Virus record (IMG/VR): IMGVR_UViG_3300050343_000064 | Location: 1 to 64,000 of that record | From: a virus | Length of the DNA stretch: 64,000 nucleotides | Direction: 5' to 3' (one strand) | Part shown: in pieces, positions 1,452-64,000 of the stretch | Position numbering within the stretch: position 1 is the first letter of the stretch | How the letters are laid out: the number at the start of each line of letters is the position of its first letter | Notes under the pieces: generated by a model | The model's database searches: none | What the model saw: only the letters and a program-made list of their open reading frames with translations | What the model was told of the DNA's origin: nothing | Program-made: the position numbers and the translations under genes

Positions 1452-1466
1452 CTCCTAGGATTTTAT

Positions 1467-2226: not shown

Positions 2227-2228
2227 GT

Positions 2229-3144: not shown

Positions 3145-3146
3145 GC

Positions 3147-3183: not shown

Positions 3184-3200
3184 TAGAAAGAAGAAAAATT

Positions 3201-4634
3201 ATGAATTATAAATTTAAAACAAAACCGTATGCACATCAAATGACTGCATTAGAAAAGTCATGGAATAAGAGAAACTATGCTTATTTTATGGAAATGGGTA
3301 CAGGTAAAACAAAAGTATTAATAGATAATATAGCTATGCTTTATGATAAAGGTAAAATTAATGGTGCTCTTAATTATTGCACCTAAAGGTGTTGTAGAAA
3401 CTTGGTATAATAATGAATTACCAACATCATTTACCTAGATCACATAGAAAATGTAACTGTATTGTGGCAAGCTGCTATTACTAAAAAACAACAAGAAAAT
3501 TTAGATACATTATTTGAAAGGTGAAGATCTTACATATTTTAATTATGAATGTTGAAGCTTTTAGTACAACTAAAGGTATAGATTTTGCAATAAATTTTTA
3601 TCTTGTCATAGAACTATAATGGCTATTGATGAGTCTACTACAATTAAAACACCTACAGCTAAAAGAACTAAAAATATTCTTAAATCTAGGTGAGTCTGCT
3701 AATATAGAAGAATAATGACAGGTTCTCCTGTAACTAAAAATCCATTAGATTTATATACTCAATGTGATTTTTTAAGTCCGTGGTTATTAGACTTTACATC
3801 TTATTATGCATTTAGAAATAGATATGCAGAAATGAAAACATTACATATGCATGGTAGACAAATACAAGTTGTAATGGTTTTAAAAATTTAGGTGAATTAT
3901 CAGATAAATTAAAAGGTTTTTCTTATCGTGTATTAAAAGAAGATTGTTTAGATTTACCAGATAAAATATTTATTAAACGTCAAATACAATTAACACCAGA
4001 TCAACGTAAATTGTATGAACAAATGAAAAAAGAAGCTATTGCTATATTAAAAGGTAAACAATCTACTACTACAGTAAACGTATTAACACAATTAATGCGA
4101 CTACAACAAATTACTTGTGGTCATTTTACTGCTGATGATGGTGCAACTCAACCTATTGCTAATAATAGAATTACAGAACTAATGAATGTTCTTAGAAGAA
4201 ACAGAAGGTAAAGCTATTATATGGGCTCACTATCAATATGACATTACTGCTATTATAAAGCTGTTAAAAAAATATGGTCCGAAGGATCCATTGTCGATTA
4301 TTATGGATTAACACCACAAGAAGAAAGACAACCTAATATTAAGCGTTTTCAAGATGACCCTAAGTGTCGGTTTATTGTTGGAACGCCTTCTACGGGCGGC
4401 TATGGCATTACTTTAACAGCTGCAAACACCGTAATTTACTATTCTAATGGATATGACTTAGAAAAGCGATTACAATCAGAAGACAGAGCACACAGAATCG
4501 GCCAAAAAAAATCGGTAACTTATGTTGATTTAATGGCGGACGATACAGTGGATGAAAAAATCGTGCAAGCTCTACGCAAAAAAATAAATATAGCATCAGA
4601 AGTTTTAGGAGAAGAATTAAGGTCATGGATTTAA
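3201..4634 (+). CDS. SNF2-type DEAD/DEAH-like helicase, copy 1 (frameshifted)
   Basis: This is the duplicate of the helicase at 59259-60689. It starts at the ATG at 3201, after a purine-rich tract, and stops at 4634. The Walker A (MEMGTGKTKV) near 3290, motif II (AIDESTTIKT) near 3625 and motif VI (SEDRAHRIGQ) near 4480-4510 are all visible, but in different frames. Breaks occur near 3375, 3435, 3525, 3605, 3690, 3880 and 4200. The density of indels is higher here than in the other copy. It points away from the rest of the replication genes. Confidence 0.7.
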
Positions 4635-4667
4635 TAGGATATATACGCGAGGCGCGCTGGAATTTTT

Positions 4668-5145: not shown

Positions 5146-5150
5146 TTTTT

Positions 5151-8100
5151 AAATCTAATAATTTTAAATCTTTAATTCTAATATACATATCTTTTTGTAT
5201 TCTAAATGCTTCTTTTTGCATTTCATTAAAGTGTTAACCATATCTGTTGGTGTTTTTTGTGCAAATTTTGTACACTATAAAATTTTTCTGTTTCATCAAC
5301 AGCTCTTAATAATCTGTTCATTGTAGATGTAAAATATCTAAGATCTTTTTTAACATCAATTCTAATAATCCGTGTTCCAGTAAACAATGCAAGTAATTCA
5401 TCAGACATTAAAGTTAACTGGTTTACCACCTTTAGTTAAATCTTTTGATAAAGCATCACCAATTTTTTGACCACTAGATACAAGTACACCAGGTTTAACA
5501 CCATCTAATACATATTAATGATTTAATAAATTTATCTCCAAGGTCATCTGATTGTGTGTACACAGATCCACCACCATCTTTTTTACCATTTCTTGTAGTT
5601 ACATCTATAAATCTATCAAAACCTAATGGCTCTGATATAAATGGTTCTAAGAAATTTAGATACCGGTCCGTCTTCTCCAAACATTAAATTCATTACAAAT
5701 TGTTCTGTTTCTTGTGGATTTAAATTTTGTTTTGTGCTTGTGCAATTGCTGCATCTAATGGTTGATATAAACTATCGTAAGGACTAAAGTATGAAAAATT
5801 AATTGCAGCACTTTCACCATTCTTCCAACCTTTAACAGCTAACAAGTTTGATGTTGCATCCCATGATGCAGCTGAAGATCTTTTGTATGCGTTCCACTGT
5901 GAGTCTGTAGAGTTAGTTAAGAACTGTGCAAGTTCATTAAATCCTTTTCCAACAGCATAACTAGTTAAAAATGCACCTGTAATCTTCTTATACCCATTTG
6001 TTTATAGCTCTGTTAGGGTGTGCAGCTTCTTTTAAACCTATACAATAATATTTGCACCTGTTCTAAGTATCTCTGCAGGAAAAGATATAAAGTTTCCAAG
6101 TGGTAGCTTTCTTAATTCTTGAATTGCTGGTGGTACTTTACTGTATGTTGGATATGTATTTCTTAATAAAAATGCTGATGCTTCTTCAATTGCATCATCA
6201 AATGTTTTTTTCTGACCTGTAACTGTATTGATTGGATCAAACTCTTTACCCATGTATCTAAACCATTTTTTAACATCATCTAAATTTTTTAGTGCTTGAT
6301 ACAATTGTGATCTTACCATACTCAAAACCATAACCTTTCCATAAGTTATCACCACCTGCATATAATCTTGCAACTTTATCAGTAGGTGCCATTTTCATTA
6401 ATCTATCAAACAATTTATCTGTTGTATTTATTAATTGTTTTTAATATCTTGTGATTACAGCTTTTAATTCTGCAGCTACAACGTTTTCATCCCACACACC
6501 TAGTCTAACTAATTTTTCTACGTAGTTATTAAATTCTACTTCATCAATTTTATTACCACCTGCTTTAAATATATCTCTTGCAACAATCTGCATTGCGTCC
6601 GTAACACTAGCTCTACCACCAATGTGACCATTCATTAATGCAAAGAAAGAAGCTGATGTTACATTTCTAACTTGTGTTTGTGGTGAGTATAATGTTTTAC
6701 CAACTTGACACCAATACTTTACCTTGCATAATTTCTCGATAAATAAACATTTATCTAATTTATCTAACACTCCACCAACACCTTGAAACATTTACATATT
6801 CAGGATCGGATGCCCATTTTTAGTAAATTTGATTTCATGTGTACCAAGTCTTGGCACTTTTAATAAGTTGTGGGGTTATAAACACCTGCGTTGATTGCTT
6901 CTTCTAAAGATTAAACAACCAACCATTTTTTAAACCAGACTCTGCAATAAAATCAGCTGCTCTTTTATTTGCCATAGATGATATCATTTCTGCTGTTGTA
7001 TAACCAACAGATGCTTTTAAATTTTTTTCAGGACCTAATAAATTTTTAATTGCATTAGGTAATTCTTCACCTGTTTTTAAAAACCATCATTTGCGCAGAT
7101 TCTTTGTAAGCTTGATTTATATCAAGTTTTGGAAAGTCAGCTTTGCTCTTAGTTTTAAATCTTTATTTCTTCCTACTACATTTTTAGCAACCCAATCTAC
7201 TGCCGTATTATATATCTTTTCATCTGGTGCATAGTTTGGATTAGTAAATGTTGAAAAAGATCTTAACATATAATCTTTTATTCTATTTATTTCTATGCCC
7301 TCTAAATTTTTTGTAATAGCATCACCATCTTTACCTTTTGGTAAAGCTTTTTTAAACTCTTTCATTGTGTTTTTTATTTCAAGTTTTAAATCATCTGCTA
7401 AGTTTACTAGTTCTTTTGGAAGATCCTCTCTTTTAAGTTGTCCTCTTAAAAATTCTTCTACTTGATCAAGATAATGTTTTTGTAATGCAGGAGAAGTAGT
7501 TGCACTATTATAATTGTTTTCAAATTTTTTAGCTAGCTCGTAAGATCTTTTTTCAATACCTTCCATAGTTCTATCTAATTTTCTTGCTCTACCTTTTATA
7601 AAAAGCATAGCTTTTTCTGATATACCTTCAATGTCTTTAGGTGCTTTACCAAAAGATCTAAAGTAAGATAAGATGTTATCTAAACGTTTAATAACTCTTT
7701 TTTCTTTTGCTGGGTTTGTTACAGAATATAATCTCCAGTCTTCAAATTTTGGTAACTGTTTTACTATTTTTCCTGAAAATGTTGATACGATCGCAGGAGC
7801 AAGTGCTTTAGTTAATACAAAGTCCTGTAGCGTTTCTAATTGTTTTAGCAGTACCTGCTACAACAGGTTTAACAGCTTCTCTGAAGATCCAAGATAACTA
7901 ATAGGTCTAAATACAGCAGTGTTTATACCTTTAGCTCCTAACTTAGCAGTTGTTTTTACAAATGGTGCAAGACCAAACTTGTAACCAAGTTGTAAACCTT
8001 TTCCAATTAAAGGAAAGCCAGCACCAATAATAGCACCTTCTTGTCCATATTTAATTCTATTTCTAAATTCAGCTGCAGCTCTTTCTTTACCTTTTAAACC

Positions 8101-40090: not shown

Positions 40091-40440
40091 CGCTCATCGA
40101 TCTTATCATCGATAGTTATAACTCCCTCTCCATCTTTGTAACCAATACGGCCTCCACCCATTGCTCTTTCTTCAGGCTCATTTAATTTCTTTTTCATAGA
40201 CGCAATACCTTCTTCATTTTGTTTCATCAGTCTTCGTCTAATATCATCTTCTGTCTCTGGAATATTTTTACCACCCATAATAGGTTTATTAGGATTAATA
40301 GCACTACGATCAAACATACTGACAACTTTTCTTTCATCAATAGATTGTTTGGCTGCTTTCTGTCTTAACAGAATCATTTCCATATTGTTAGGCATTCTGC
40401 CTTTACTTGCTTTAAATGCTTCTATTAAAAATTTTAACAT
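40087..40440 (-). CDS. 117-aa late protein with GGRIG motif
   Basis: MLKFLIEAFKASKGRMPNNM, a basic helical body, and MGGGRIGYKDGEGVITIDDK near the C-terminus. The start is coupled to the TerL stop (TAATG), and the stop overlaps the next start (ATGA). The C-terminal motif is nearly the same, also at DNA level, as in the next gene. Function unknown. Confidence 0.75.
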   Translation of the reverse strand: MLKFLIEAFKASKGRMPNNMEMILLRQKAAKQSIDERKVVSMFDRSAINPNKPIMGGKNIPETEDDIRRRLMKQNEEGIASMKKKLNEPEERAMGGGRIGYKDGEGVITIDDKIDER

Positions 40441-41917
40441 TAATAGTAATTCCTTTTACGTTGCTCTTGTGGTTCATCCACATAATCTTCAGGGTGTTGT
40501 AATAATCCTGCCTGCCTGAATCGCATAATCGCTTGTGTTGTACTATCAACAAGGTCGTCATGATCGCCATAAGGAAACGCAGCGCACTCTTCAATGACGT
40601 CATCTGCAAATTTCTGTTCAGGTGCCCATATCATACCAGATTCAAACAAAGGTGCAACAGCATTTACACGTGAATGTTTATCATTTCCACGAGACGGTGT
40701 GAAGTTCACAACCGGTATATCCATTTGTCTTAACTCATATGTAAGAGGTAAACCTGATGCTTTTGCCTCAACTATAACCGATTCTGGTTGCCAATACTTA
40801 TATTGCTCTAATGCAAGTCTACGTAATTCAGGAAACTCATAACTCCTTTTATAGAATCAAGGAGCATTAAATTAGCTCCTGAGTCTTGGTCCGGATAAAA
40901 TACACCCCAAGTAGTAATAGCACTATAGTCGGCAGTTTCTTTTTTTAAAAATGCTGTATCATAAGATTGTATGACATGATGCAGTTCTGGTATCCAATCT
41001 TTTCCCACACTCTCCACCATTCACGTTTTATAATTGCTCCTTCTTCAGACGTTGGGTTTTGCATCCACTGCGCATTCCATTTGCCCGTGGGCAGTGTTGC
41101 TTGGACCTTCTCTAATTCATCTAGCTTCCAATACTCAGGCCAAACTGGTTTAGCTTTCTTTGATCCGTGGTCCATGATTGCTGGAAAGAGACCACGTGCC
41201 ACTGATCAGCTTTAGCTTCTTTTTGGTTTGCAATTAATTTTCCTGTAAGATCTTTGTTAGACCATCTTGTCATTACAATATAATTTTACCACCAGGTTGA
41301 AGACGTTGTCTTGGTCCTGATGTGTACCATTCATAAGCAGACTCCATTGCAGTCGGCTGACATTGCGTCTTGCTCCGAATGTGGGTCATCAATTATTAAT
41401 AGGTCAGCACCCCGTCCGGTTATTGCACCGCCAACTCCAGCTGCAAAATACTCACCACCTTGTGCTGTTTCCCACCTACCAGCGGCTTGCGAGTCTTCTC
41501 TTAGTCTTGTTTCAAATATTTTTCCATAATCGTCACTATCAATTAAGTTCTTAGCTTTACGACCAAATCTTACGGCTAGTTCTCCTGTGTGAGTTGCTTG
41601 AATTATTTTTAACTTAGGGTTACGGCCCACCATCCACGCTGGTAACAAGTAACTTGCAAACTCTGATTTCGTATGACGTGGAGGCATATTTACTATCAGT
41701 CGGTTTATTTCTCCCGTTGCAAGTTGATTAAATTTTTTTGCTATGTGTCTGTGGTGCGAGCCTTCTATAAAATCGGGCCACACACATTTGACAAAGGACA
41801 TGAAGTCATCTCTGGCTTTACCTTGTATTTGTTTTTCTGCATGCATGACTTGCAGTTTCTTGAATGTCTTTCTGACGTCTGCAGGTAGCTTACTATATCT
41901 ACGTTATTTAAATTCAT
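40440..41917 (-). CDS. terL: Terminase large subunit (frameshifted)
   Basis: About 490 residues from MNLNNVDI at 41917, with slips near 41885, 41345, 41285, 41205, 40980 and 40840. The ATPase half has NMPPRHTKSEFAS (Walker A-like, the RHTKSE form usual in many terminases), IIQATHTGELAVRFG and LLIIDDPHSEQD (Walker B). The nuclease half has SYDTAFLKKETADYS (first metal Asp) and YGDHDDLVDSTTQA (late Asp pair). It cuts and pumps DNA into the prohead through the portal. The small subunit is not adjacent but on the other strand at 46676. Confidence 0.85.
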
Positions 41918-44195: not shown

Positions 44196-44229
44196 ACTAC
44201 TTGACAATAGGATAGTCAAGGATTATATA
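44196..44229. promoter_or_regulatory. Promoter/operator at the edge of the control region
   Basis: Plus strand TTGACA (44201-44206), 17-base spacer, TATATA (44224-44229), reading into the structured region. TTGAC/GTCAA arms at 44201-44205 and 44215-44219 form an inverted repeat around AATAGGATA. A weaker minus-strand promoter (TTGACT) overlaps and would serve the gene starting at 44156. Confidence 0.55.
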
Positions 44230-44275
44230 TTAAATATGTTTTTTATTCTGTTTAGGTGAAATAAAAAAATAGGAG

Positions 44276-44524: not shown

Positions 44525-44731
44525 GGCCTGTTGCCCGGGCTGTTAAAATAAAGCACGCCGGCCTGTTGGTCCTGCTAATGATAGTATCAGTAAGTGTACA
44601 ACCAGCGTCCACATCTTGCCTCTGGCATTTCCCTGTACGTTAGCGATGATCCGCAAGGTAGCAATGGGTGTACCACCAGCCCGCGCCGGGTCCCTGATCA
44701 AGGGGCGCGGATGGTAATATGAATTGCCAGT

Positions 44732-44758
44732 TTAGAATGATTCTAAAAATCATTCTAA
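44732..44758. repeat. Perfect 11-bp inverted repeat
   Basis: TTAGAATGATT (44732-44742), loop CTAAA, AATCATTCTAA (44748-44758). It sits just before the first heptamer array. Confidence 0.65.
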
Positions 44759-44778
44759 AGAAGAGAAGCCTGAAGCGC

Positions 44779-44803
44779 CAAGCCTCAAGCAGCAAGCAAC
44801 GCT
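44779..44803. repeat. CAAGCNN array 1 (short)
   Basis: CAAGCCT, CAAGCAG, CAAGCAA and a final CGCTT that runs into TTGACA at 44803-44808. It is the same degenerate heptamer as at 45097 and 45966. Confidence 0.6.
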
Positions 44804-44831
44804 TGACAATGGTTCAGGGATAATGTAGGAT
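44803..44831 (+). promoter_or_regulatory. Sigma70-like promoter (plus strand)
   Basis: TTGACA (44803-44808), 17-base spacer, TAGGAT (44826-44831). It drives the small gene starting at 44856. The -35 box is continuous with the end of heptamer array 1. Confidence 0.7.
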
Positions 44832-44855
44832 TAATATAGAAAGTGAGAAATACAT

Positions 44856-45067
44856 ATGAGTAAAATAAAAATAACGAAGCTGGTGAGCAGCTGAACAGAG
44901 TAGCTATTGCCCTGGAAGAGATCCTGCGGATGGTGAAGGAAGATCAGGAACGATCTAAAAAATATCATGGAAGACTGTCCAGCCGAATACGGAAGCATTT
45001 TAGATCCACGATGGATGATGCCTATGACTACCCGATCAGGATCCGAAAGCGTGCGGATCCTGATTAA
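44856..45067 (+). CDS. Small plus-strand protein (one frameshift)
   Basis: Starts MSKIKITK at 44856, 25 bases after the -10 box. A slip near 44880 leads to EQLNRVAIALEEILRMVKED, then YHGRLSSRIRKHFRSTMDDA and RIRKRADPD. About 69 residues, helical, with a basic C-terminus, so DNA binding is possible. The last 11 codons are encoded by a perfect stem-loop (45035-45064). Function unknown. Confidence 0.55.
45035..45064. repeat. Perfect 11-bp GATC stem-loop
   Basis: ATCAGGATCCG (45035-45045), 8-base loop, CGGATCCTGAT (45054-45064). It overlaps the 3' end of the small plus-strand gene. The arms share the GATCAGG/TGATCC words with the structures at 44303 and 45902. Confidence 0.7.
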
Positions 45068-45096
45068 CCACTGGCGCTGGTTACAGGACCAGGGCC

Positions 45097-45167
45097 CGAG
45101 CTACAAGCTCAAGCCACAAGCTGCAAGCGCAGCAAGCTTGCAAGATTAAATTATAAAGCAAGCTTGA
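45097..45167. repeat. CAAGCNN array 2 (interrupted)
   Basis: Copies at CAAGCT, CAAGCCA, CAAGCTG, CAAGCGC, CAAGCTTG and, after an AT-rich break, CAAGCTTGAC. The last copy runs into TTGACA at 45164-45169 upstream of the GP88-like gene. Confidence 0.6.
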
Positions 45168-45243
45168 CAGGACGTTATCCAGTACCTGGACCGAATTATA
45201 AAGTTATGTAACATCCTATAAAGCTATAAAGGAGAAAGATAAT

Positions 45244-45843
45244 ATGAATACTAAAGAAGCATGGACCCTGGTTGGAGGGTTAAGTAAACCGTCAAAGATG
45301 CCAGGCTGGGCAATTGGAATTCCAGCTGCTGAATGCAAGACTGGTAACAAATTAAAATTAATACCTAACTCAGTATGCTCAGGCTGTTATGCTGAAAAAG
45401 GTTGTTATGTTTTCGCTGTTGTACAAGCCGCGCAATACAAGCGCCTGAAGGCAATAGATCACCCGCAATGGGTTGAAGCAATGGCAACGCTTATTAATTC
45501 AAAAAAGCCTGATGTCTTTAGATGGCATGACAGCGGCGACGTTCAAGACGAAGCTCACCTGAACAAGATCTTTGAAGTCTGTAGATTAACACCGGGCAAG
45601 CGTCACTGGATGCCAACGCGTGAAGCGTGGATCAAGGACCATATGCACAAGGCGCCAGCAAATCTAGTTGTAAGATTCTCATCACCGATGATTGACCAGG
45701 GACCAGTTAAGAGCTGGGCCAATACGTCGACAGTCTCGACTAAAAGTCGAACATGTCCAGCCCCTGACAACAACAACGAGTGCGGCAGCTGCAGAGCTTG
45801 TTGGGATCCGCTGGTAAAGAACATAGAATATGGTAAACACTAA
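45244..45843 (+). CDS. GP88-like Cys-rich phage protein
   Basis: 199 residues. The N-terminus MNTKEAWTLVGGLSKPSKMP is followed by NSVCSGCYAEKGCYVF, a CxxCYAxxGxY motif, then FRWHDSGDVQDEAHLNKIFE and a C-terminal Cys cluster (TCPAPDNNNECGSCRACW). This is the layout of the phage gene-88-type family, whose Cys residues may bind a metal or iron-sulfur cluster; the function is not established. RBS AAAGGAGAAAG lies upstream. It stands alone between two heptamer arrays. Confidence 0.7.
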   Translation: MNTKEAWTLVGGLSKPSKMPGWAIGIPAAECKTGNKLKLIPNSVCSGCYAEKGCYVFAVVQAAQYKRLKAIDHPQWVEAMATLINSKKPDVFRWHDSGDVQDEAHLNKIFEVCRLTPGKRHWMPTREAWIKDHMHKAPANLVVRFSSPMIDQGPVKSWANTSTVSTKSRTCPAPDNNNECGSCRACWDPLVKNIEYGKH

Positions 45844-45845
45844 CC

Positions 45846-45959
45846 ATGACACACGTTTTTAAACATCCAAAATTTTACAGAATCCCTAGGGATAATAAAT
45901 CGGATCAGGCCATTAGCGAGGAGCTCCTCGACGGAGGCCAGCGAGCGTGCACCTGATCC
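45846..45959 (+). CDS. 37-codon frame after the GP88-like gene (uncertain)
   Basis: MTHVFKHPKFYRIPRDNKSD, then QAISEELLDGGQRACT. No ribosome site and no family. Its second half coincides with the nested palindromes, so it may be chance. Listed because it begins two bases after the previous stop. Confidence 0.25.
45902..45959. repeat. Nested palindromes with GGATCAGG arms
   Basis: Outer arms GGATCAGG (45902-45909) and CCTGATCC (45952-45959), inner perfect palindrome GAGGAGCTCCTC (45918-45929). The architecture matches the element at 44303-44379. It may also end transcription of the GP88-like gene. Confidence 0.65.
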
Positions 45960-45965
45960 GGGCCT

Positions 45966-46093
45966 CAAGCAGCAAGCTTCAAGCACCAAGCCTCAAGCTC
46001 CAAGCATCAAGCCCCAAGCTCCTCAAGCAGCAAGCCACAAGCATCAAGCCCCAAGCAGCAAGCGTCAAGCTTAAAGCCACAAGCTTCAAGCTC
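45966..46093. repeat. CAAGCNN array 3: 18 degenerate heptamers
   Basis: Eighteen head-to-tail heptamers, first five bases CAAGC (one AAAGC), last two bases variable (AG, TT, AC, CT, TC, AT, CC...). Only one two-base insertion breaks the register (after unit 8). There are no unique spacers, so this is not CRISPR. It overlaps the 3' end of the minus-strand nuclease gene. Confidence 0.8.
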
Positions 46094-46363
46094 CATGATT
46101 CGTGAACCACGGAAAAGTTTCACGGTACCCGGACCAAGGGCCTCTGCTATGATAAATGTATTGTGTGGATGCTTCACATGGAAGGCAATTTGATGTGGAG
46201 AGAACCTTATTTTGTTCCCTCTACAGACCTTTAATTCTACAGTGAAAAAGTGGCCAGAATTATTATAGCCCAATAGATCGGGAGTACCAAGTAAGCTATT
46301 ATTTTCAAGTCTAATTAGCATTTTCATGTACTTCCATTCTTCGAATAGCATGTAGTTTTCCAT
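46007..46363 (-). CDS. PD-(D/E)XK nuclease with repeat-encoded C-terminus
   Basis: 118 residues. MLIRLENNSLLGTPDLLGYN supplies the PD motif and FFTVELKVCRGNKIRFSPHQ the ExK motif and following Gln, as in VRR-NUC/Holliday-resolvase-like enzymes. The last 29 residues (EACGFKLDACCLGLDACGLL) are read from the CAAGCNN array and form a heptad pattern. The start at 46363 overlaps the upstream small gene. Probably processes replication or recombination intermediates. Confidence 0.7.
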   Translation of the reverse strand: MENYMLFEEWKYMKMLIRLENNSLLGTPDLLGYNNSGHFFTVELKVCRGNKIRFSPHQIAFHVKHPHNTFIIAEALGPGTVKLFRGSRIMELEACGFKLDACCLGLDACGLLLEELGA

Positions 46364-48904: not shown

Positions 48905-49333
48905 TTTTTTGTACCTCTCTATATTCGTCTAAAGATATTACATTATCTTTAAATGCTTTAGTTGTATATGTTCTATTACTTGTTGTATCTTAGGTAGTTT
49001 AGTATGTGCAAATGGCCATATCAAACAACACACATAGTATGCATCTCTAAATGTACATCGCCATCTCCATTGTTTAAGATATGGTGTACCATCAACTCTA
49101 TTACCCTTAACCTTTTTAGGAGTAAAAGTTCCAACACCTAAAACCTCGTGAACCCACATTATAACTGATCTATCGGTCATCGTTATTTCCATACTGATAC
49201 GCATAGAATTAGATAACCGGTAGCCAGGTTTATTATTATGTTTTTTCTTTTTCTCAATACCACGTCTTATGTGTATGGACCCTTCTCCGTCAAACAGTCC
49301 TGCAATATAAGCTTTGTCAGTATCTTCTATCAT
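48882..49333 (-). CDS. LAGLIDADG-type homing endonuclease (one frameshift)
   Basis: KAYIAGLFDGEGSIHIRRGI is the LAGLIDADG helix with its acidic residue. The rest (ISMEITMTDRSVIMWVHEVL, YVCCLIWPFAHTKLPKIQQV) follows the fold of single-motif enzymes. A slip near 48945 extends the end to DNVISLDEYREVQKNVGQDS. No intron or intein boundary is apparent beside it, so it is free-standing. About 150 residues, probably a dimer. It may spread itself by cutting rival phage DNA. Confidence 0.75.
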
Positions 49334-49521
49334 TAATGTATTGACATCCCTTCTCCAGGCAGATCTTCGTTTTCATAATCGTATATCTCTCCCTGTGACT
49401 CACAGTCCCAGCATTGATGAATCATATCTTCTTTTTCATAAATGCATGCGACTTTTACATAGCCATTACCTTTACAGGTAGGACATACGTAAACCTTTTT
49501 AACTCTTTTTGAACTTGCCAT
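49333..49521 (-). CDS. 62-aa zinc-ribbon protein (DnaJ-type CxxCxGxG)
   Basis: VYVCPTCKGNGYV and HQCWDCESQGEI form two CxxCxGxG-like knuckles, as in the DnaJ zinc domain, followed by an acidic tail. It probably binds zinc and either protein or RNA. The stop overlaps the endonuclease start. Small single-domain versions are common in phages. Confidence 0.7.
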   Translation of the reverse strand: MASSKRVKKVYVCPTCKGNGYVKVACIYEKEDMIHQCWDCESQGEIYDYENEDLPGEGMSIH

Positions 49522-49672
49522 TTAATTTCTTCGCTTTCTCGTTTGCTATTGCTTCTATTGTCTTTGCTACGCTTAGTTTCGCATCTGGAAAAATTATCTT
49601 TGATAACTTATCTAAAGTAGCGTATGTTTCTTTAGTTAAAGAAACGTTCTTGTATTTAGTCATGTCTGTCAT
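49499..49672 (-). CDS. 57-aa ribbon-helix-helix-like DNA-binding protein
   Basis: MTDMTKYKNVSLTKETYATL, then DKLSKIIFPDAKLSVAKTIE and a basic tail. The short beta-strand (KNVSLT) followed by two helices is the Arc/CopG pattern, so it may regulate promoters of the early region. It overlaps the zinc-ribbon start by 23 bases. A promoter with TTGACA lies 50 bases upstream. Confidence 0.65.
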   Translation of the reverse strand: MTDMTKYKNVSLTKETYATLDKLSKIIFPDAKLSVAKTIEAIANEKAKKLNGKFKKS

Positions 49673-52429: not shown

Positions 52430-54271
52430 TCATTTTATATTACCCCAATTTGGACCAGATTCATAGTCCACCTTGTTAGGTACTTCTAATTCTACTGCAG
52501 ATTCCATAATCTCTTTTATTTTATCTGCATTACCATCGACAGATATATCAAGTTCATCATGTACTTGTATATGCGGTATGATACCTTCTTTGTATAATCA
52601 ACCATAGCTTTTTTAGTCATATCAGCTGCTGATCCTTGTATAAGTTTATTTAATGCTTTGTATGTAAAAGCACGCTTGATCCCTGGTCCGTGTTCCTGGA
52701 GTGCATCTTCGTGAGGCAATGCTTTATGTATCCCAAACTGGTTAGGCTCCCATAAATTAAACCTACATCTACCCAAGTAAAGTTCTAACTTACCTTTATC
52801 CTGTGCTCTACGCATTACACTTTCCATTAACATTTTTACAAATGGAACTTTGTCATGGTATTGTTCTAAATAGATCATCAGCATTTTCTTTGATACACCT
52901 AGCTCTGCTTGTAATTTATTTTTACCCATACCATAAAACAAACCAAGATTAATTGTCTTGGCCTGTGATCTAGGTATGTTTGCCATGTCAGCTACAATTT
53001 TGTGAAAGTCTGTATCCGGTTCATCGTTGTATGCATCAACAACTTCATTTACTTTATATAAATCATCGAGACTAGCATAGTGTGTAACAATCTAGGTTCT
53101 TGTTGTGAGTAGTCAAAGCAACCCCAAGTATGTCCTTCTTCTGGAATAAACAAACTTCCTGATCCGTGGTCCAAGTTCCTTGTTACGTGCAGGAATCTGC
53201 TGTAAGTTTGGATTGTTGTAACTGAACCTACCGGTTACTGTACCACCTTGATCGGATCTAATTTGATTTATCTCTGCATGTATTCGACCTTTGTGTGAAT
53301 GTTTTAATATTGTATCTATAAATGTTGTGTGAGATTTATTTATCTCTCTTGCATGTGCAATTGCTTTTGCTACAGGGTGTGTTTGATTCTGTAACCAATT
53401 TTTAGTAAAGCTTGGTGCTTCAGTTTTTAAAGTTCGTTCGTAAGGTAATTTTAATTTATCAAATACTTCGGCTATTGATCTTGCAGCCCAGATTTGTACA
53501 TCAATTCCTGTTACTTTTTTAACTTCTTGTAAACATTTCTTTTCATCTGATACTAATTCTTGTTTTAATTTGTGTGCTGCATCTACATCAACACGTACTC
53601 CTAAGAATCTCATGTCAACAAGACATGGAAACAATTCTGTTTCAAGATCAAAGATAGATTGTACATCTTCATCTAGTATTTCTTTTTTCATTTCTTGCCA
53701 TAGTTTTAGAGTCAACACTGCATCTTGCTCGGCATATTCTCCAACATACATTGCAGGTAGTTTATACATCTCAGACTTAGCATCTATGCCCCAATGCGCT
53801 GCAGTTTCCTTCAATACAGCCTCATTTTTACCGATTCCGACGTAATCACGACCCAAACTACCTAAATCATAACGAAAGCGATTCTCGTCCACGAGAGAGC
53901 CAGCAATCATGGTATCCACGATCTTACCCTCTATTTTAAGGCCCATAGACCTAATCCAACATACATCGTACATTGCATTGTGAAATATCTTAATTGCAGG
54001 TGTATTTAGTACATCTTGTAAACCATTTTATAACCATATTCTTATCCATGTTACCACCACCTTCATGTGCGATAGGATAATATCCAGACCAACCTTCTAC
54101 AGCAACAGCTATACCTACAACTTTACCATTACCAACTACAGATCCTGAACCTGTTGATTTTAAATCTGGGTCTTTGGTCTCTAAGTCAATTGCAATCTCA
54201 TCATACTTTGATAAGTCTGGAAAAGATTCTGGTGGTAGCCACTCTGTTTGTGGTTTGAATATAGGTTTCAT
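52430..54271 (-). CDS. polA: Family A DNA polymerase with 3'-5' exonuclease, Leu762 type (frameshifted)
   Basis: About 612 residues from MKPIFKPQTEWLPPESFPDL. Exonuclease motifs: AIDLETKDP (Exo I), FHNAMYDVCWI (Exo II), YAEQDAVLTL (Exo III). Polymerase motifs: GRFSYNNPNLQQIPARN, CFDYSQQEPR (A), RSQAKTINLGLFYGMG (B, with the conserved Arg, Lys and Tyr) and QVHDELDIS (C). The residue matching E. coli Phe762 is Leu (codon at 52945-52947). Slips near 54025, 53150, 53095 and 52598 split it. No 5'-3' exonuclease domain is present. It replicates the phage genome. Confidence 0.9.
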
Positions 54272-55988: not shown

Positions 55989-57481
55989 TAGTAATTTTCT
56001 TTCTTAAATGTTTTTGGTTTGTATGTTTCTATTTTTTTATCAAATCTCGCTACAACAAACACAGATAGTTTTGTTTTACCTACACGTTTAGTTGTACAGT
56101 TTAGATCATCTTTCAACATTTGTGATGTTCTTTGATATGGAACTCTCCAATGTTTTCTTGATAAATAATTATTAAAAAAGTTATCAAATACAAAGTGATG
56201 AAAACCATCTTTAGTATAAGTACCACCATTACGTAAGTCTTCGTAGTCGTCTTTTTGTATCCTGTTTACGCAATAATCTTCTAAGTAATTATTTAAAATA
56301 TCTTTTGTACTTGTACCTTCTGCAGGTTCTGTAATTTCTGCATTAGTTAACAATGCAGTTGTAACTTTTTTCCAGTCACCAACTTTTACTGTTGGTGGAT
56401 TTATTCTTAATTGTTTAATACATTCTTCTTGAAATAAAATTTGATTAGCTAAATGTTTTGCTGAGTCCAGATATAATCTATTTCCATCTACATTCATATA
56501 ATAATATGGTTCTTCCAAGTTAACTACTTGTAAATCTGTTAGACTTGGAAACACTGGTTCTTGACCTATACCAAATTTTCTTTTCTTACATAATTTTTTA
56601 TCACACAAACTACACATAGGTTGGTCACTACATTTATAACCCCACTCTTTTTTTTCATGTTGTTTTGTAATTATATTTACTTCTGTATCAGATAATGGTT
56701 GTTCCATTGCAGTTTCATTAAATACTATTACTTTTGATTTCCAATTGTCAGGCCATTTAGATTTTGCATATACACCATAATGAAATAGTGCATTATTTCT
56801 ACCACCCTCACCAATTTTATTTTGTGCCATTAATTCTATACATGGTGGTCCATCAGAGTATGGAGTCTCCGGTCTTTTAACTTCTATTGTTTTGATGTCT
56901 TGTTGTTTATATCTTTCGTAGAGTTCAAAAAAAGCATCTATACTAGCAGCTTCGCCATCCTCCATAAAGGCGTATCTTGTTGTTTGACCACAATTAAAGT
57001 ATGGTAAATTTAAAAAGTTTCCTGTATCATCTTTTGATTTTAATTCTCTTTGTTTAGGAAATACTTCTGATCCACCATAACCTAATACAGATCTAATCTC
57101 GTTTAATTTATCTTGCATCAAACCTGCTGATACATAATCTTCTGTAAATAAAAATACATGAGCACCACCAGACTTTGATCTACATACTACTAATGGTAAT
57201 TGAAATTGTTTTATTTTATTAATTAATTTTTTGTGATCAAACTCTGCGTATGAGTCGATGTCTATACATCCCCACTTACATTTGTTATCATCATTGATAG
57301 GTATAATACCCAAACTGTCAGCACCATCTAAATGCTTTTGCCACAAATCGTCTGTGACTGGTTCTCGTTTAACAAACGATTTACCTTTAATTTTATTACC
57401 GTCACCATTTGATTCACCTACTAGAGTGACACCATGTGCACGGTCTAATCCATCAAATATATTTTTAAATCTTTCTATCAT
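55988..57481 (-). CDS. AEP-superfamily primase, TOTE-like
   Basis: 497 intact residues. The N-terminal half has GIIPINDDNKCKWGCIDIDS (DxD metal pair) and VVCRSKSGGAHVFLF (the SxH-type motif), then GYGGSEVFPKQ and DTGNFLNLPYF, the order of archaeo-eukaryotic primase catalytic motifs, closest in my reading to the TOTE-type. The middle has a Cys cluster (CSDQPMCSLCDKKLCKKRKF), probably a zinc knuckle; the C-terminus is helical and basic. It makes primers for the polymerase. A strong terminator lies just upstream. Confidence 0.75.
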   Translation of the reverse strand: MIERFKNIFDGLDRAHGVTLVGESNGDGNKIKGKSFVKREPVTDDLWQKHLDGADSLGIIPINDDNKCKWGCIDIDSYAEFDHKKLINKIKQFQLPLVVCRSKSGGAHVFLFTEDYVSAGLMQDKLNEIRSVLGYGGSEVFPKQRELKSKDDTGNFLNLPYFNCGQTTRYAFMEDGEAASIDAFFELYERYKQQDIKTIEVKRPETPYSDGPPCIELMAQNKIGEGGRNNALFHYGVYAKSKWPDNWKSKVIVFNETAMEQPLSDTEVNIITKQHEKKEWGYKCSDQPMCSLCDKKLCKKRKFGIGQEPVFPSLTDLQVVNLEEPYYYMNVDGNRLYLDSAKHLANQILFQEECIKQLRINPPTVKVGDWKKVTTALLTNAEITEPAEGTSTKDILNNYLEDYCVNRIQKDDYEDLRNGGTYTKDGFHHFVFDNFFNNYLSRKHWRVPYQRTSQMLKDDLNCTTKRVGKTKLSVFVVARFDKKIETYKPKTFKKENY

Positions 57482-57491
57482 ACAAAATAAA

Positions 57492-57525
57492 AGTGGGCGT
57501 CGCCACTCTCGCTTAAACGCCCACT
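57492..57525 (-). terminator. Rho-independent terminator before the primase
   Basis: AGTGGGCGT (57492-57500) and ACGCCCACT (57517-57525), 9-bp perfect stem, followed on the minus strand by TTTTATTTT. Conserved in the diverged copy at 1422-1451. It should lower primase and polymerase expression relative to the genes above. Confidence 0.8.
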
Positions 57526-57539
57526 ACCTAGGATACTGG

Positions 57540-58292
57540 TTAGTAGTTAGAAGAACCTTTTGTAGTTTCTTCCGTACTATGTTTAGCTTGAACTTCACCT
57601 TTACCTACAGATTCTGCAAATGACTTAGCCATATCATATATAGCTTTATCTTCTACAGGACTAACTTTAGATACATCCCAACCAAACCATGTTCCTTTGT
57701 CATTAGACATCTGAACGGTTGATAGTTTATAAATGTGGCTATAAGTTGGCGGTGTGAATAAACCGTTTTTACCTTGCATCTTAATACCCATCATCATTGA
57801 GTTCCATTTTCTACTAACTTTAAGTTGAGTAGACTTCATAGAAATCAAAGCTGTCTGTGGGTTATCTCCAAGAGTCAATACAAAGTGACTAGCTGTGTTA
57901 TCAAGATAGTTACCGTTTGGTAATCTGTCTTTATAATCTTTACCTCTAGTCGTCTGACTTACAATGTCACTGTCTGCCTCGTGCATTGCAACAGGTGCAC
58001 CTGTACTGGTACCTCTGTCTTGCCATTCGATGTACTGTCTTTTGTAATGACATGGTACAACATTTAAAGTGTCATACAATTCATTAGTTACAGTATTTAT
58101 TATTTTGCCTGGTTCTGCACCATCGACATATTTACCATCTCTTTTGTTTACCTCTGGAGATAGTTGTCCCAAAATTTTTAAGAATGGTAACGCAAGATCT
58201 TCTTGCGATATATTTTGAGCGCCTTGTGCTGCATCAGCTTCCATATCAAATGTTGCTAATGCGCTATTCTTTTTTTCTGCTACTTGGTTCAT
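57540..58292 (-). CDS. Probable ssDNA-binding protein
   Basis: 250 residues. MNQVAEKKNSALATFDMEAD, then LALPFLKILGQLSPEVNKRD, YKRQYIEWQDRGTSTGAPVA and FVLTLGDNPQTALISMKSTQ, a beta-rich core with many aromatic and basic residues and an acidic tail region. I recognise this as a common protein in marine phage replication modules, usually proposed to be an SSB; I see no direct proof. It is ahead of a terminator, so it should be made in larger amounts than the primase. Confidence 0.65.
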   Translation of the reverse strand: MNQVAEKKNSALATFDMEADAAQGAQNISQEDLALPFLKILGQLSPEVNKRDGKYVDGAEPGKIINTVTNELYDTLNVVPCHYKRQYIEWQDRGTSTGAPVAMHEADSDIVSQTTRGKDYKDRLPNGNYLDNTASHFVLTLGDNPQTALISMKSTQLKVSRKWNSMMMGIKMQGKNGLFTPPTYSHIYKLSTVQMSNDKGTWFGWDVSKVSPVEDKAIYDMAKSFAESVGKGEVQAKHSTEETTKGSSNY

Positions 58293-58294
58293 GT

Positions 58295-58843
58295 TTATTT
58301 GTTCCTTTTTATTGTTGTCTTATTCTCTGAGAATACCCCAAAGATTTCCGTTGGCATTTCTTTACCTGCCTCAATACGCTCACGGACTAGCGCTTTCAGA
58401 GTCATGGGCTCAACCTTCATCTTTTGTGTCGGTTGAAACCCTTGACCCTTCGCAAGTTCAGCATATGTTGCTGCCTTGTTATCTTCGTTACGACCAAATG
58501 ATACCAAGATCTCGTTCTTAATAATATCACCTAGTCCATTGTCTCGAAGCCAGTTAAACGCCGTCTCTTTATTTGCTTCTGTAATAGTAGCACGATACGT
58601 CGTTGAAACTTTAAGATGTGATCCATCTTGAAGTTTTAATTCTGCTAAACCCATCTCGGACATCATGGTCGGTATAACCTCACCTGATATACGTTGGTAT
58701 TCTTTTTTTAAATCTTTAATGTTATTCTCACTTGTCTCTATTCTTTTATGTAAGCCCTCTAACATTTCTACTTGATCTGCAAGAGACTGAATGTTTTCAG
58801 TTTTGCTCATTGCATCTTGTTGGTCTTGTTCAAAGTTAATCAT
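58295..58843 (-). CDS. Conserved replication-module protein with coiled coil
   Basis: 182 residues. The first 60 are coiled coil (QSLADQVEMLEGLHKRIETS), then YQRISGEVIPTMMSEMGLAE, RDNGLGDIIKNEILVSFGRN and KVEPMTLKALVRERIEAGKE. This gene usually accompanies the SSB-like gene in related phages. Its role is unknown; a recombination mediator or SSB partner is a guess. Overlaps the upstream gene by 8 bases. Confidence 0.65.
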   Translation of the reverse strand: MINFEQDQQDAMSKTENIQSLADQVEMLEGLHKRIETSENNIKDLKKEYQRISGEVIPTMMSEMGLAELKLQDGSHLKVSTTYRATITEANKETAFNWLRDNGLGDIIKNEILVSFGRNEDNKAATYAELAKGQGFQPTQKMKVEPMTLKALVRERIEAGKEMPTEIFGVFSENKTTIKRNK

Positions 58844-59207
58844 CTATTTCTCCTTTCTCGTATAGATTAATCTCAATAGGATAATATTTTCTTTCTTGTT
58901 TATCCCACTTCAATACATTGTATTTACCGTTTGTAATATCAGATACAATAGAACATGCAACACCAATGATTGCAGGATCTCCTGTTAATAATAAATAATC
59001 TTCTGGTGTATAATCTCTTAAACCTTTTCTTAATTTAAAAATTAATGGACCAGGAGAAAAAATCATTTGAGAAAACTCTGGTAATAAAAAATTAAATTTA
59101 CCTGAAGTAGAATAAGAAGCTGCACCCATAATATTTATTTTAGGACTACCTGCTTGGCTACCTGGTATCTCTTGTATTACATAAACTTTTCTTTCTGACA
59201 TTGACAA
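58836..59207 (-). CDS. 123-aa conserved protein, first of the replication operon
   Basis: MSMSERKVYVIQEIPGSQAG, then SPKINIMGAASYSTSGKFNF and DYLLLTGDPAIIGVACSIVS. A compact alpha/beta protein. It is the first gene behind the minus-strand half of the divergent promoter, so it should be expressed early. Function unknown. Confidence 0.65.
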   Translation of the reverse strand: MSMSERKVYVIQEIPGSQAGSPKINIMGAASYSTSGKFNFLLPEFSQMIFSPGPLIFKLRKGLRDYTPEDYLLLTGDPAIIGVACSIVSDITNGKYNVLKWDKQERKYYPIEINLYEKGEIDD

Positions 59208-59237
59208 ACAATATAATCATGTTTATATTAATGTCAA
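59201..59237. promoter_or_regulatory. Face-to-face promoters, helicase and replication operon
   Basis: Plus strand: TTGACA (59201-59206), 17 bases, TATATT (59224-59229), for the SNF2 helicase. Minus strand: TTGACA (59237-59232), 18 bases, TATTGT, for the replication operon. The two -35 boxes face each other across 25 bases, the same arrangement as at 46641-46674. Confidence 0.7.
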
Positions 59238-59258
59238 CTAGAAAGAAGAAAAAAAATT

Positions 59259-60689
59259 ATGAATTATAAATTTAAAACTAAACCCTATGCACATCAATTA
59301 ACTGCATTGGAAAAATCGTGGAACAAAGAAAACTTTGCTTATTTTATGGAGATGGGTACAGGTAAAACAAAAGTATTAATAGACAACCTTGCTATGTTAT
59401 ATGACAAAGGCAAGATAGATGGTGCTTTAATTATTGCACCTAAAGGTGTTGTTAAAACTTGGTATGAACAAGAACTTCCTACACACTTACCAGATCATAT
59501 AGAAAATGTGTCTGTATTGTGGCAACCAAATATTACAAAAACACAACAAGAAAAATTAGATTCTTTATTTGAAATAGATAGTGCATTACATATTTTAGTT
59601 ATGAATGTTGAAGCTTTATCAACAGACAAAGGTGTTAAGTTTGCAACCAAATTTATTAACTCTCACAAAACTTTGATGGCTATAGATGAGTCTACTACAA
59701 TTAAAACTCCTACTGCTAGACGTACTAAAAATATTATTAAGATGGGAGTAAACGCTAAGTATAAAAGAATCATGACCGGTTCTCCTATTACAAAAAATCC
59801 TCTGGACTTATATACACAGTGCGAGTTCCTTGATCCGTGGTTATTGGACTTTAGTTCTTACTACGCGTTTCGTAATCGTTATGCTGAAATGAAAACGATG
59901 CATGTACACGGACGTTCTATTCAAGTAGTAGATAAGTTTCAAAATCTTAGGTGAGTTATCAGATACAGTAAAACAATTTTCATACAGAGTATTAAAAGAA
60001 GATTGTTTAGATTTACCCCCTAAAGTATTTATCAAACGTCATATAGCATTGACAGCTGATCAACAAAAATTTATAAACAAATGAAAGATCAAGCTCTTGC
60101 TGTGCTTAATGGTAAAGTTACAACTACCATGACTGTGTTAACTCAATTAATGAGACTACATCAAATTACATGTGGTTATGTAACTGCTGATGATGGGACC
60201 ACACAACAAGTTGAAAGCAATAGACTTAATGAATTAATGTCCATACTAGAAGATACGGAAGGTAAAGTTATTATATGGGCCAACTATCAATTAAGTGTAG
60301 GTGAGATTATACAGAAAATAATTAAAGTATATGGTCCAGATTCATATGTTCATTACTATGGTTTAACACCACAAGAAGATAGACAAGACTATATTCGTAA
60401 GTTTCAAAACGATCCTAAGTGTAGATTTATTATAGGTACACCTCAAACAGGTGGTTATGGTATTACACTTACGCAAGCTAATACTGTTATCTATTATTCT
60501 AATGGTTATGATCTAGAAAAGAGACTCCAATCAGAAGACAGAGCACACAGAATAGGACAAAAGAAAACAGTGACTTATATCGATCTGATTTGCGAGGACA
60601 CGATCGACGAGAAGATTGTGAAGGCTTTAAGAGATAAAATAAATATTGCATCTGAAGTTATGGGTGAAGAATTAAAAGATTGGATTTAA
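59259..60689 (+). CDS. SNF2-type superfamily 2 helicase (frameshifted twice)
   Basis: About 477 residues. MNYKFKTKPYAHQLTALEKS (Q-like region), FMEMGTGKTKVLID (motif I), LIIAPKGVVKTWYEQELP (Ia), MAIDESTTIKTPTA (II, DEST rather than DEAH), RIMTGSPITKNPLDLY (III), KVIIWANYQLSVGEI (IV), IGTPQTGGYGITLTQANTVI (V) and SEDRAHRIGQKKTVTY (VI). Slips near 59950 and 60072 split it. It may remodel nucleoprotein or unwind DNA together with the SF1 helicase. Convergent with and overlapping the M15 gene by 4 bases. Confidence 0.85.
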
Positions 60690-61164
60690 AGTATATCTTT
60701 TGCTTTACCTAAAATAGGTTTGTATTTAGTTTTATTTTCTTCTCTATATGCATGTAGAAATTGTTTTCTTGGTGTGCCTTCTGTTATACTACAAGTGTAT
60801 CCATCCCGAGTTAGGTTCTCCAGGAACGTAGTACTCGACGATCAGCTGATCCCAATTCAAGCTCTCTATGTATCCAATCTGCAAGTTCAGCATTGTCGAC
60901 TCCAACACATTCGAAGTCTGCCGCTTCCGCACGTGAGTGCTGGCTGTTGATCGAACTACCGATGGCTTGGCAAAGCTGAGGAGAACGGAACCCTGATGTG
61001 ACTTTGACTCTACCGAAATGATCTCTTACCGGTTGTAAAATTTTTTCACAAAGTAATTTTAATTTTTCTATTTGTTCTGCGTTAGGTTATTGTTAATACC
61101 TTTACGTATAGCAGTGTCTGATTTAATTAAGCTCTTGAAGAGTAAAGTTTCGTGTAAGTTCCAT
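60686..61164 (-). CDS. M15-family peptidase, probable endolysin, copy 2 (frameshifted)
   Basis: The start MELTRNFTLQEL at 61164 is a typical peptidase_M15_3 N-terminus. Motif pieces in order are IKSDTAIRKGIN, VKVTSGFRSPQLCQ, SQHSRAEAADFECVGVDN (zinc His and Asp) and GEPNSGW, ending TKYKPILGKAKDIL. Slips near 61125, 61085, 60945, 60865 and 60790. It would cleave the peptide cross-bridge of the cell wall. The XhlA-like gene overlaps its start. Confidence 0.7.
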
Positions 61165-61340: not shown

Positions 61341-64000
61341 TATATTGTAACCCCCGCTACAATAGAAACCCGATAGGACTTGCCTATCATACCGCCCAAA
61401 CTTTTAAATTTGTTTATCATTATACAATCCTTTTCCCAATAAGAATCTTTCAATGTATCTAACTCATCTATTGGAAATACATAATCTTCATTTAATCTAA
61501 ATTTATATTTTATATTCTCTTTGTTTTCTTTTCTAAGTTGTGAATCAATAGTATCAACTTTTGTTTGAAATCTTGCTTTTGAATAATTGGTTGGTGTAAA
61601 AACACCATCTAATAAATTACCTCTTAGCCTTGAACTAACTCCAGATTTTTTTAAAATATTATCTATATCGTCTTCACTTAAATCTAAAAGTTTTAAATCT
61701 TGAATTCTAATAAACATATCTTTCTGTATTCTAAATGCTTCATCTTGCATTTTTTTAAATGTTTTAACTTGAGTCATTGGTGTGTTCTCACCATAATTAT
61801 TTACATTGTAAAAGTTTTCATTTTCATCAACAGCTCTTAAAAGTCTATTCATGTCTGATGCAAAATACCTTAAATCTTTTTTAGTATCTATTCTAATAAT
61901 TCTAGTACCTGCTAGCAATGCTAACAATTCATCTTTTAAATTTAAAGGTTTACCACCTTTTGTTAAATCTTTTCCTATTGCTCCTTCAATTTTTTCTGCA
62001 CTAGTAAATACACCTGGTTTTACTCCATCTAATATATAAGCAAATGATTTTGCAAATTTATCTCCAATACTATCTGATGCAGCAAAGACCGTACCACCTT
62101 GATCTTTTTTACCATTTCTTACAGTAACATCTAAAACCCTATCATAACCTAAAGGCTCAGTTATAAATGGTGATAAGAAATGTCATCACAGGTCCATCTT
62201 CTGCAAACATAATACTCATTACATAGTCGTCTGTTTCTTGAGGATTTAATTTTTGTTTATTAGCTTGGTTGATTGCAGATTCAAAAGGTGCCCACAAACT
62301 ATCATAAGGTGAGAAGTATGAAAAATTAATTGCTGCTGATTCACCATCTTTCCATCCTGTTACAGGAAGTAAGTTAGAGTTCCTGTCCCATGGTGCAGCT
62401 GAAGAACGTTTGTAAGCGTCCCACTGAGAGTCTGTTGAATTAGTTAAAAACTGTGCAAGTTCTACTAATCCTGTTCCTGTTGCGTAACTTGTCATAAATG
62501 CACCAGTTAATCTTCTAAGACCCATTTGTCTTATTGCTGGATTACTGCTAGATGTTTCTTTTAAACCTATAGATACAATGTTTGCACCTGTTCTAAGTAT
62601 TTCTGCAGGGAAAGATATGAAAGCACCCAAAGGTAGTTTTCTTAATTCTTGTATTGCTGGAGGTACTTTAGAATAAGTTGGGTACGTGTTTCTAATTAAA
62701 TATGCTGAAATATCATCAACATGATCATCGAAGTTTTTAATTACACCTGTTACTGTAGGATTAGTTTCTAAAAACTCTTCTACCCATTTCTCTGTACCAT
62801 TTTTTAACATCATCTATATTTTTAAGAGCTTGATTTATTTGTGATCTTGAATACTCATAACCAAAGTGTTTCCATAAGTTATCACCACCTGCATATAGTC
62901 TTGCAACCTTGTCGGTAGGTGCCATTTTAATTAACTTATCAAATAATTGATCTGATGTTCTTACTTCTTGGTTTTTAATCTGATTCATGATTGCTTTTAA
63001 TTCAGATGCTACAACGTTTTCATCCCAAACACCTAGTCTAACTAATTTTTCTACATAGTTATTAAATGAAACTTCATCTATATTTTTTTACCACCTGCTT
63101 TAAATATATCTCTTAAACAATCTTCATTGCATTAGTAACACTAGCTCTACCACCTATGTGGCCATTCATTAATGCAAAGAAAGAAGCTGATGTTACATTT
63201 CTAACTTGTGTTTGTGGTGAGTATAATGTTTTACCAATCAGCTTTAGCTCTTATTTTTAAATCTTTATTTCTTCCAACTACATTTTTAGCTACCCAATCT
63301 ATTGCTGTATTATATACCTTTTCATCTGGTGCATAGTTTGGATTAGTGAATGTTGAAAAAGATCTTAACATATAATCTTTTATTCTATTTATTTCTATGC
63401 CCTCTAAATTTTTTGTAATAGCATCACCATCTTTACCTTTTGGTAAAGCTTTTTTAAATTCTTTCATTGTGTTTTTTATTTCAAGTTTTAAATCATCTGC
63501 TAAGTCCACTAGTTCTTTGGGAAGATCATCTCTTTTAAGTTGTCCTCTTAAAAATTCTTCTATTTGATCAAGATAATGTTTTTGTAATGCAGGAGAAGTA
63601 GTTGCACTATTGTAATTGTTTTCAAATTTTTTAGCTAGCTCGTAAGATCTTTTTTCAATACCTTCCATAGTTCTATCTAATTTTCTTGCTCTACCTTTTA
63701 TAAAAAGCATAGCTTTTTCTGATATACCTTCAATGTCTTTAGGTGCTTTACCAAAAGATCTAAAGTAAGATAAGATGTTATCTAAACGTTTAATAACTCT
63801 TTTTTCTTTTGCTGGGTTTGTTACAGAATACAATCTCCAGTCTTCAAATTTTGGTAACTGTTTTACTATTTTTCCTGAAAATGTTGATACGATCGCAGGA
63901 GCAAGTGCTTTAGTTAATACAAAGTCTGTAGCGTTTCTAATTGTTTTAGCAGTGCCTGCTACAACAGGTTTAACTGCTTCTCTAGATCCAAGATAACTAA
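61340..64000 (-). CDS. Very large virion/ejection-type protein, copy 2 (5' part beyond window)
   Basis: Clean pieces are 63231-63833, 62157-62813 and 61340-61927, ending GVTI at 61340. The C-terminal 190 residues (EAFRIQKDMFIRIQDLKLLD, FPIDELDTLKDSYWEKDCIM) are complete here but missing from copy 1. Conversely, 433 bases present in copy 1 at 6704-7136 are absent at 63237. Ser-, Lys- and Tyr-rich helices dominate; no enzyme motif is seen. The segment LRKLPLGAFISFPAEILRTG is conserved between copies. Function as for copy 1. Confidence 0.6.

Follow-up and report, generated by a model that had tools for sequence, protein, structure and literature searches.

Tandem CAAGC arrays in register with promoters at a conserved control locus of HTVC027P-like phages

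The control region of a relative of the HTVC027P-like pelagiphages contains three arrays of a degenerate heptamer, CAAGCNN. Such arrays recur at one locus of related phages, their units keep a fixed register to the -35 box of the adjacent promoter, and a sister group repeats the same pentamer with a pitch of 8 bp. With a probability of about two-thirds, we interpret the arrays as a cis-acting cooperative tandem operator, probably repressive, for a phage DNA-binding protein that would time the expression of sORF1 (gp34 of phage HTVC027P) and GP88 (gp33). In an open-access library that covers a minority of subscription journals and preprints, we found no earlier description of such arrays, either for phages in general or for pelagiphages.

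The control region and its source genome

The window, i.e., the whole stretch of 64,000 nucleotides that was analyzed, is part of a 64,770-base virus record (IMG/VR record IMGVR_UViG_3300050343_000064). According to GP88 and the small terminase subunit TerS, the nearest annotated phages include Pelagibacter phage HTVC027P (host HTCC1062) and phage 023Pt_psg01. These viruses are related to phages that infect SAR11, the most abundant bacterium of the ocean, and pelagiphages are among the most abundant viruses of the sea. The ends of the contig repeat each other (window positions 1-4642 and 56061-60696, 5149-6703 and 61678-63237, 7137-7901 and 63238-64000) with an identity of about 80% and then 97%, which suggests a chimeric or two-strain assembly and a genome of about 56 kb. 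Frameshifts break the genes for TerL (40440-41846), DNA polymerase (52516-53973), and sORF1 (44856-45067), as in an uncorrected long-read contig.

All three arrays lie on the plus strand. Array 1 (44765-44797) is composed of three exact CAAGC units starting at 44779, 44786, and 44793, preceded in register by GAAGC units at 44765 and 44772, all with a pitch of 7 bp. It is located upstream of the sORF1 promoter (44803-44831, plus strand), in which TTGACA (44803-44808) and TAGGAT (44826-44831) are separated by a 17-bp spacer, an arrangement common to the relatives. The sORF1 gene (44856-45067, plus strand) encodes a small coiled-coil-like protein homologous to gp34 of HTVC027P, and its frame is broken in the window contig, apparently within an A run. 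Array 2 (45097-45163) contains six exact CAAGC units (45104, 45110, 45117, 45124, 45133, and 45159) as well as degenerate units, such as CGAGC at 45097. Its spacing is uneven in the window contig, with 6- and 9-bp steps, which possibly reflects sequencing errors. The last unit touches the -35 box TTGACA of the GP88 promoter (45164-45169, plus strand), which begins 5 nt after the start of this CAAGC. GP88 (PF17338, E = 4.6e-26; 45244-45843, plus strand) is the homologue of gp33 of HTVC027P; its fold was modeled well (pLDDT 90) and gave no confident match in the PDB.

Array 3 (45966-46091) lies between the convergent genes GP88 and NUC and consists of 18 units, 17 exact CAAGC units and one degenerate unit (AAAGC at 46073). 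A 9-bp step between the units at 46015 and 46024 splits it into two sub-arrays, one at 45966-46019 with 8 units (starts 45966 to 46015) and one at 46024-46091 with 9 exact units and AAAGC. NUC (46007-46363, minus strand) encodes a small PD-(D/E)XK-like nuclease, whose C terminus and stop codon are located inside array 3, and is followed by the gene for TerS (domain match to PF03592; 46676-47197, plus strand). The unit count of array 3, the shorter arrays near 44779 and 45097, and the TTGACA boxes at 44803 and 45164 on the 3′ side of arrays 1 and 2 agree with the preliminary description of this DNA. Its statement that array 3 keeps register over 128 bases is slightly inaccurate, given the register slip of +2 bp at 46015/46024; similar +2 steps occur in relatives. 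A pattern of three units gave 13 matches in the window, every one inside the three arrays and on a single strand, and no match in 100 dinucleotide-preserving shuffles.

Conservation, promoter register, and pitch

To survey related viruses, IMG/VR was scanned with a 5-unit pattern that was blind to genes, which yielded at least 120 stretches. Among the matches listed, 118 of 120 loci carried a homologue of GP88, TerS, or NUC and thus represented the same locus. The arrays of one locus shared a single orientation among these matches, and the usual order was TerL and P229 (both leftward), array 1, a rightward sORF, array 2, GP88 (rightward), array 3, NUC (leftward), and TerS (rightward). The number of arrays per locus was 2 to 5, and the small genes between them varied. 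In a reverse search anchored on GP88, in which loci were selected independently of the arrays, a downstream array was present in 67 of 68 loci. An upstream array was present in 58 of 76, and in most of the exceptions an extra gene separates GP88 from the array. When the search was anchored on the 57-aa ribbon-helix-helix (RHH)-like protein described below, arrays were found in 40 of the 47 contigs that extend to NUC/GP88; of the remaining seven, four contain scattered pentamers, and three are contigs that stop in NUC or where the array lies. The preliminary description had proposed to look in relatives for CAAGCNN runs next to origins or promoters and had taken their absence from the locus as speaking against its proposal. 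The runs are present at the same locus across hundreds of contigs.

The control region of HTVC027P (MN698241.1; our locus L247) matches the window in its three arrays, in its gene order, and in the presence of the RF02976 RNA. The arrays occupy matching places, at 5613-5633 before gp34, at 5911-5956 before gp33, and at 6719-6848, 3′ of gp33 and overlapping gp32. Runs of at least three CAAGC units occur nowhere else in this genome. The array sequences differ in detail from those of the window and are unannotated in the HTVC027P record, and the GP88 protein of HTVC027P is about 50% identical to that of the group members. The Flavobacterium-1 RNA (RF02976, E = 1.8e-18) is located directly upstream of array 1 in both genomes, at 44596-44715 (plus strand) in the window and at L247:5477-5597 in HTVC027P. 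Its presence at array 1 in both genomes indicates that this RNA is carried by pelagiphage-type genomes. A LAGLIDADG homing endonuclease gene lies near the control region of the window (48938-49333, minus strand), and an HNH homing endonuclease is annotated in the matching region of HTVC027P.

The position of the arrays relative to promoters was determined for 195 array ends with a TTGAC box at most 30 nt away. In 114 of these, the distance from the first base of the last CAAGC to the box was exactly 5 nt, and in 23 further array ends the box was located one or two 7-bp steps farther. We also aligned 161 non-identical GP88 promoters with the first T of TTGACA as zero. CAAGC starts were found at -5 (105 promoters), -12 (85), -19 (88), and -26 (90) and, farther upstream, at -33 (73), -40 (56), and -47 (29). 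The array-adjacent promoters fit the consensus TTGACA, 17 bp, TAtaaN. The CAAGC starts are fixed relative to TTGACA, and the array is therefore in phase with the RNA polymerase site. In 29 of the 161 promoters, CAAGC overlaps the core promoter between the -35 and -10 elements, a position that favors a repressor.

In the sister group the pentamer, CAAGC or CGAGC, is retained and the pitch is 8 bp. An IMG/VR scan with CAAGCNNN identified 78 8-bp arrays with degenerate spacers, of which 75 were at this locus, whereas a control scan with a 6-bp pitch gave eight degenerate arrays, none of them at this locus. The ladder of the 8-bp group occupies positions -13, -21, and -29 and then +11 (equal to -5 + 16), within the spacer between -35 and -10. 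A ladder running with 8-bp pitch through the core promoter favors a DNA-coating protein and disfavors an explanation at the level of RNA or coding. The repeats of both groups are contiguous and unspaced, with a pitch of 7 or 8 bp, and overlap or abut promoters, both of which are features of RHH-type tandem operator ladders of the omega2/MetJ kind. For 46 taxa, three pitch changes were needed on the RHH tree and three on the TerS tree; for 27 taxa, the numbers were three (RHH), four (TerS), and seven (GP88), the comparison with the RHH tree being weak owing to the shortness of the RHH protein. In phage 023Pt_psg01 (MW574966.1; our locus L248), which has CRAGC units, a G-rich repeat, GGGGGAGGGTGGGCCC, occurs at 4136, 4893, and 5706, near three array positions; the G-rich part also adjoins arrays in other members of the 8-bp group.

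Tandem CAAGCNN repeats are also present in many unrelated bacterial genomes, which would be in line with a functionless low-complexity expansion, a possibility raised in the preliminary description. The bacterial copies, however, are mostly one identical 7-mer, whereas the viral arrays hold the pentamer and leave the dinucleotide free. The fraction of distinct spacers per array was 0.86 in the viral arrays (n = 277) compared to 0.27 in the bacterial ones (n = 78), and essentially a single spacer was present in 55 of the 78 bacterial but only 2 of the 277 viral arrays. The viral arrays therefore lack the near-identical units of a simple tandem repeat or minisatellite, and the assignment of five fixed and two free positions was borne out. 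Together with the locus and the register, which are kept across divergent phages, this spacer variety contradicts a low-complexity expansion, which we regard as extremely improbable.

Candidate reader proteins, array 3, and nearby elements

The leading candidate for a reader of the arrays, as judged from its sequence, is a 57-aa protein of the HTVC027P gp21 family (49499-49672, minus strand), which is present in phages of both pitch groups. Its layout, with a strand-like segment YKNVSL and helices at residues 14-27 and 35-50, fits a ribbon-helix-helix protein. Orthologues of the 8-bp group matched PF01402 (RHH_1) with E values of 1.4e-3 and 2.3e-3, the best score being 19.0 bits compared to a cut-off of 20.5; orthologues of the 7-bp group gave no match to this Pfam family. 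An AlphaFold model of the protein was of low confidence and had no PDB match, and neither alignment gave a match when used as a profile against PDB sequences. Phages with the common CAAGC core differ in the predicted DNA-facing strand residues of this protein (N/S, S/A, and N/T), and this variation makes it a weaker candidate. As there is no array at the RHH gene, we see no sign of autoregulation. An alternative candidate is TerS, which has a conserved N-terminal HTH-like segment.

Array 3 is the longest of the arrays, and no promoter abuts it in the window. The C terminus of NUC is encoded by half of this array, and in 255 of 305 loci the NUC stop codon is at most 12 nt from an array unit. 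NUC ends in a heptapeptide repeat (LEACGxx-like), as in most relatives, because the 3′ end of its gene consists of array units. Several relatives have an additional small gene behind the first sub-array, which is preceded by a TTGACA promoter of its own. We infer, as the weakest step of our proposal, that the same candidate protein would also use array 3, for loading or for bridging.

Between GP88 and array 3, the window contains a conserved element, GGAYCAG..CATTAG....GCGTGC..CTGRTCC (45902-45959, plus strand), which occurs at the same place in about 60 relatives and has a variable middle with some two-sided changes. Its pairing was only partly recovered (eight pairs, four with two-sided changes), and a search of Rfam gave no match. 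The element is possibly an undescribed structured RNA. Beside array 1, a dyad of TTTAGAATGATTCTAAA followed by AATCATTCTAAA is located at 44731-44759; dyad-like sequences of this kind were found in 36 related loci, where many of them lie close to arrays and promoters, and perhaps represent a second operator. An assignment of the TTTAGAATGATTCTAAA dyad as an alphaproteobacterial iron-regulator (Irr/ICE) box was dropped, as the literature search provided nothing usable. The control region also contains, at its left end, a promoter-like dyad TTGACAAT..ATTGTCAAG (window 44200-44240), which is conserved in HTVC027P (L247:5148-5180) and in others (e.g., locus L070 around 355-375).

Proposed function, alternatives, and known systems

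A 2025 RNA-seq study of HTVC027P placed gp33 and gp34 alone in an "extra cluster 2," which stands outside the early, middle, and late clusters and is highly expressed 6 to 9 h post infection (PMC12753301). The authors describe HTVC027P as having no RNA polymerase of its own and, in the section consulted, offer no cis explanation for gp33 and gp34; the words "promoter" and "motif" are absent from the paper (PMC12753301). These two genes are exactly the ones whose promoters carry arrays 2 and 1, respectively, and the clustering is independent of the present sequence analysis.

In the mechanism that we propose, CAAGC would be the recognition core of a cooperatively binding protein, with one protomer set per 7-bp step, or per 8-bp step in the sister group. 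The protein would coat the DNA on the upstream side of the sigma70-type promoters that serve sORF1/gp34 and GP88/gp33, in some cases extending across them, and this coating would give these genes their separate timing. The protein that would bind the arrays and act as a repressor may be the conserved RHH-like 57-aa phage protein. We favor repression, through occlusion of the -35 box, over activation; an activator is also compatible with the consensus promoters and with sites that lie mainly upstream, and the reported expression peak of gp33 and gp34 at 6 to 9 h fits both modes alike. A binding ladder for a repressor, one of the readings put forward in the preliminary description, thus appears to be favored by the sequence patterns, namely the conserved locus, the phasing to the -35 box, and the pitch changes around a fixed core. 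A broader reading is tentative and in our opinion rather doubtful, namely a phage-wide operator code made up of one pentamer, an RHH-like polymerizing reader, and a 7- or 8-bp pitch that switched more than once with the reader lineage. If true, the pitch variants would form a natural series from which to learn what determines the protein-protein spacing of regulators that coat their operators.

The location of the arrays between TerL and TerS wherever a contig spans both, and thus next to terminase genes, raises the question of whether they form a packaging site (pac- or cosB-like), in which TerS would bind the ladder to start DNA packaging. The conserved HTH-like N terminus of TerS and the fact that the TerS and RHH trees account for the pitch about equally well would agree with such a role. 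However, phasing to the -35 box and repetition at several promoters are superfluous for a packaging site, and no fixed genome end was seen at the array, so that we regard this explanation as unlikely. Transcribed CAAGC repeats could alternatively act at the RNA level, in Rho-type termination or as protein-binding RNA at the 3′ ends of small transcripts. Every array is located 3′ of a rightward unit (the RF02976 RNA, sORF1, or GP88 with a small downstream ORF), and all arrays have one orientation. The exact 7- or 8-bp pitch, the -35 register, and the continuation into the promoter spacer are nevertheless constraints at the DNA level, and the spacer dinucleotides show no clear pyrimidine bias among the matches listed, which makes an RNA-level element distinctly improbable.

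The arrays, as direct repeats arranged in tandem in a control region that forms a long intergenic stretch between blocks of genes, are also reminiscent of replication origin iterons bound by an initiator. A GC-skew analysis around the arrays had been suggested in the preliminary description; the cumulative skew was near-monotonic in the window as well as in HTVC027P and did not switch at the arrays, so that it gave no origin signal. Furthermore, the neighboring genes are sORF1, GP88, NUC, and TerS, no Rep-type or initiator gene being adjacent, and the promoter phasing would be left unexplained; we consider iterons very improbable. Neither the initiator nor the RNA element, which the preliminary description had named beside a repressor, thus gained positive support. 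The variation in array number (2 to 5 per locus) and in the intervening small genes, as well as the disagreement of the GP88 tree with the pitch (seven changes compared to three on the RHH tree for 27 taxa), might indicate regulatory cassettes that double as PeSL-like recombination junctions for small-gene swaps, with regulation being secondary. As a fixed pentamer, free spacers, and a promoter register are needless for recombination alone, we give this explanation hardly any credence, and recombination at the arrays may be a side effect of an operator rather than a rival to it.

The proposed operator provides a concrete cis element for two genes that the published RNA-seq data had set apart, and it bears on gene timing in phages of the HTVC023P/HTVC027P type, which are without their own RNA polymerase. 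It also gives a short list of candidate readers in a culturable phage-host pair, and the switch from 7 to 8 bp with a constant core is one of the few natural comparisons available for tandem operators that act cooperatively.

Among known systems, the PeSL elements of T4-type phages are cassettes of a promoter and a stem-loop between small variable genes. The arrays share with them the repeated intergenic promoter-bearing units among such genes, but they differ in the pentamer ladder phased to the -35 box and in that no stem-loop requirement was seen in the arrays. The met boxes of Escherichia coli MetJ are 8-bp tandem RHH sites, palindromic and few in number. Like the arrays of the 8-bp sister group, they are unspaced tandem sites at promoters, whereas the ladders described here are carried by phages, are longer, and consist of direct repeats. 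Closest in architecture is the omega2/parS system of pSM19035, in which 7 to 10 non-palindromic 7-bp repeats (WATCACW, with five positions fixed) follow one another without spacers in several arrays per replicon that overlap promoters; single sites are weak, and binding is cooperative with one RHH dimer per repeat (PMC9499535). Both systems have contiguous 7-bp ladders in multiple arrays at promoters. In the phages, the core is CAAGC, all units are direct instead of in mixed orientation, the pitch differs between groups (7 or 8 bp), the carrier is a lytic marine phage, the reader is a candidate, and a ParA (delta) partner is not named in the HTVC027P annotation. By analogy, the phage arrays resemble the omega2 and MetJ ladders in layout, and we compare them with these systems and do not assign them as a member of either.
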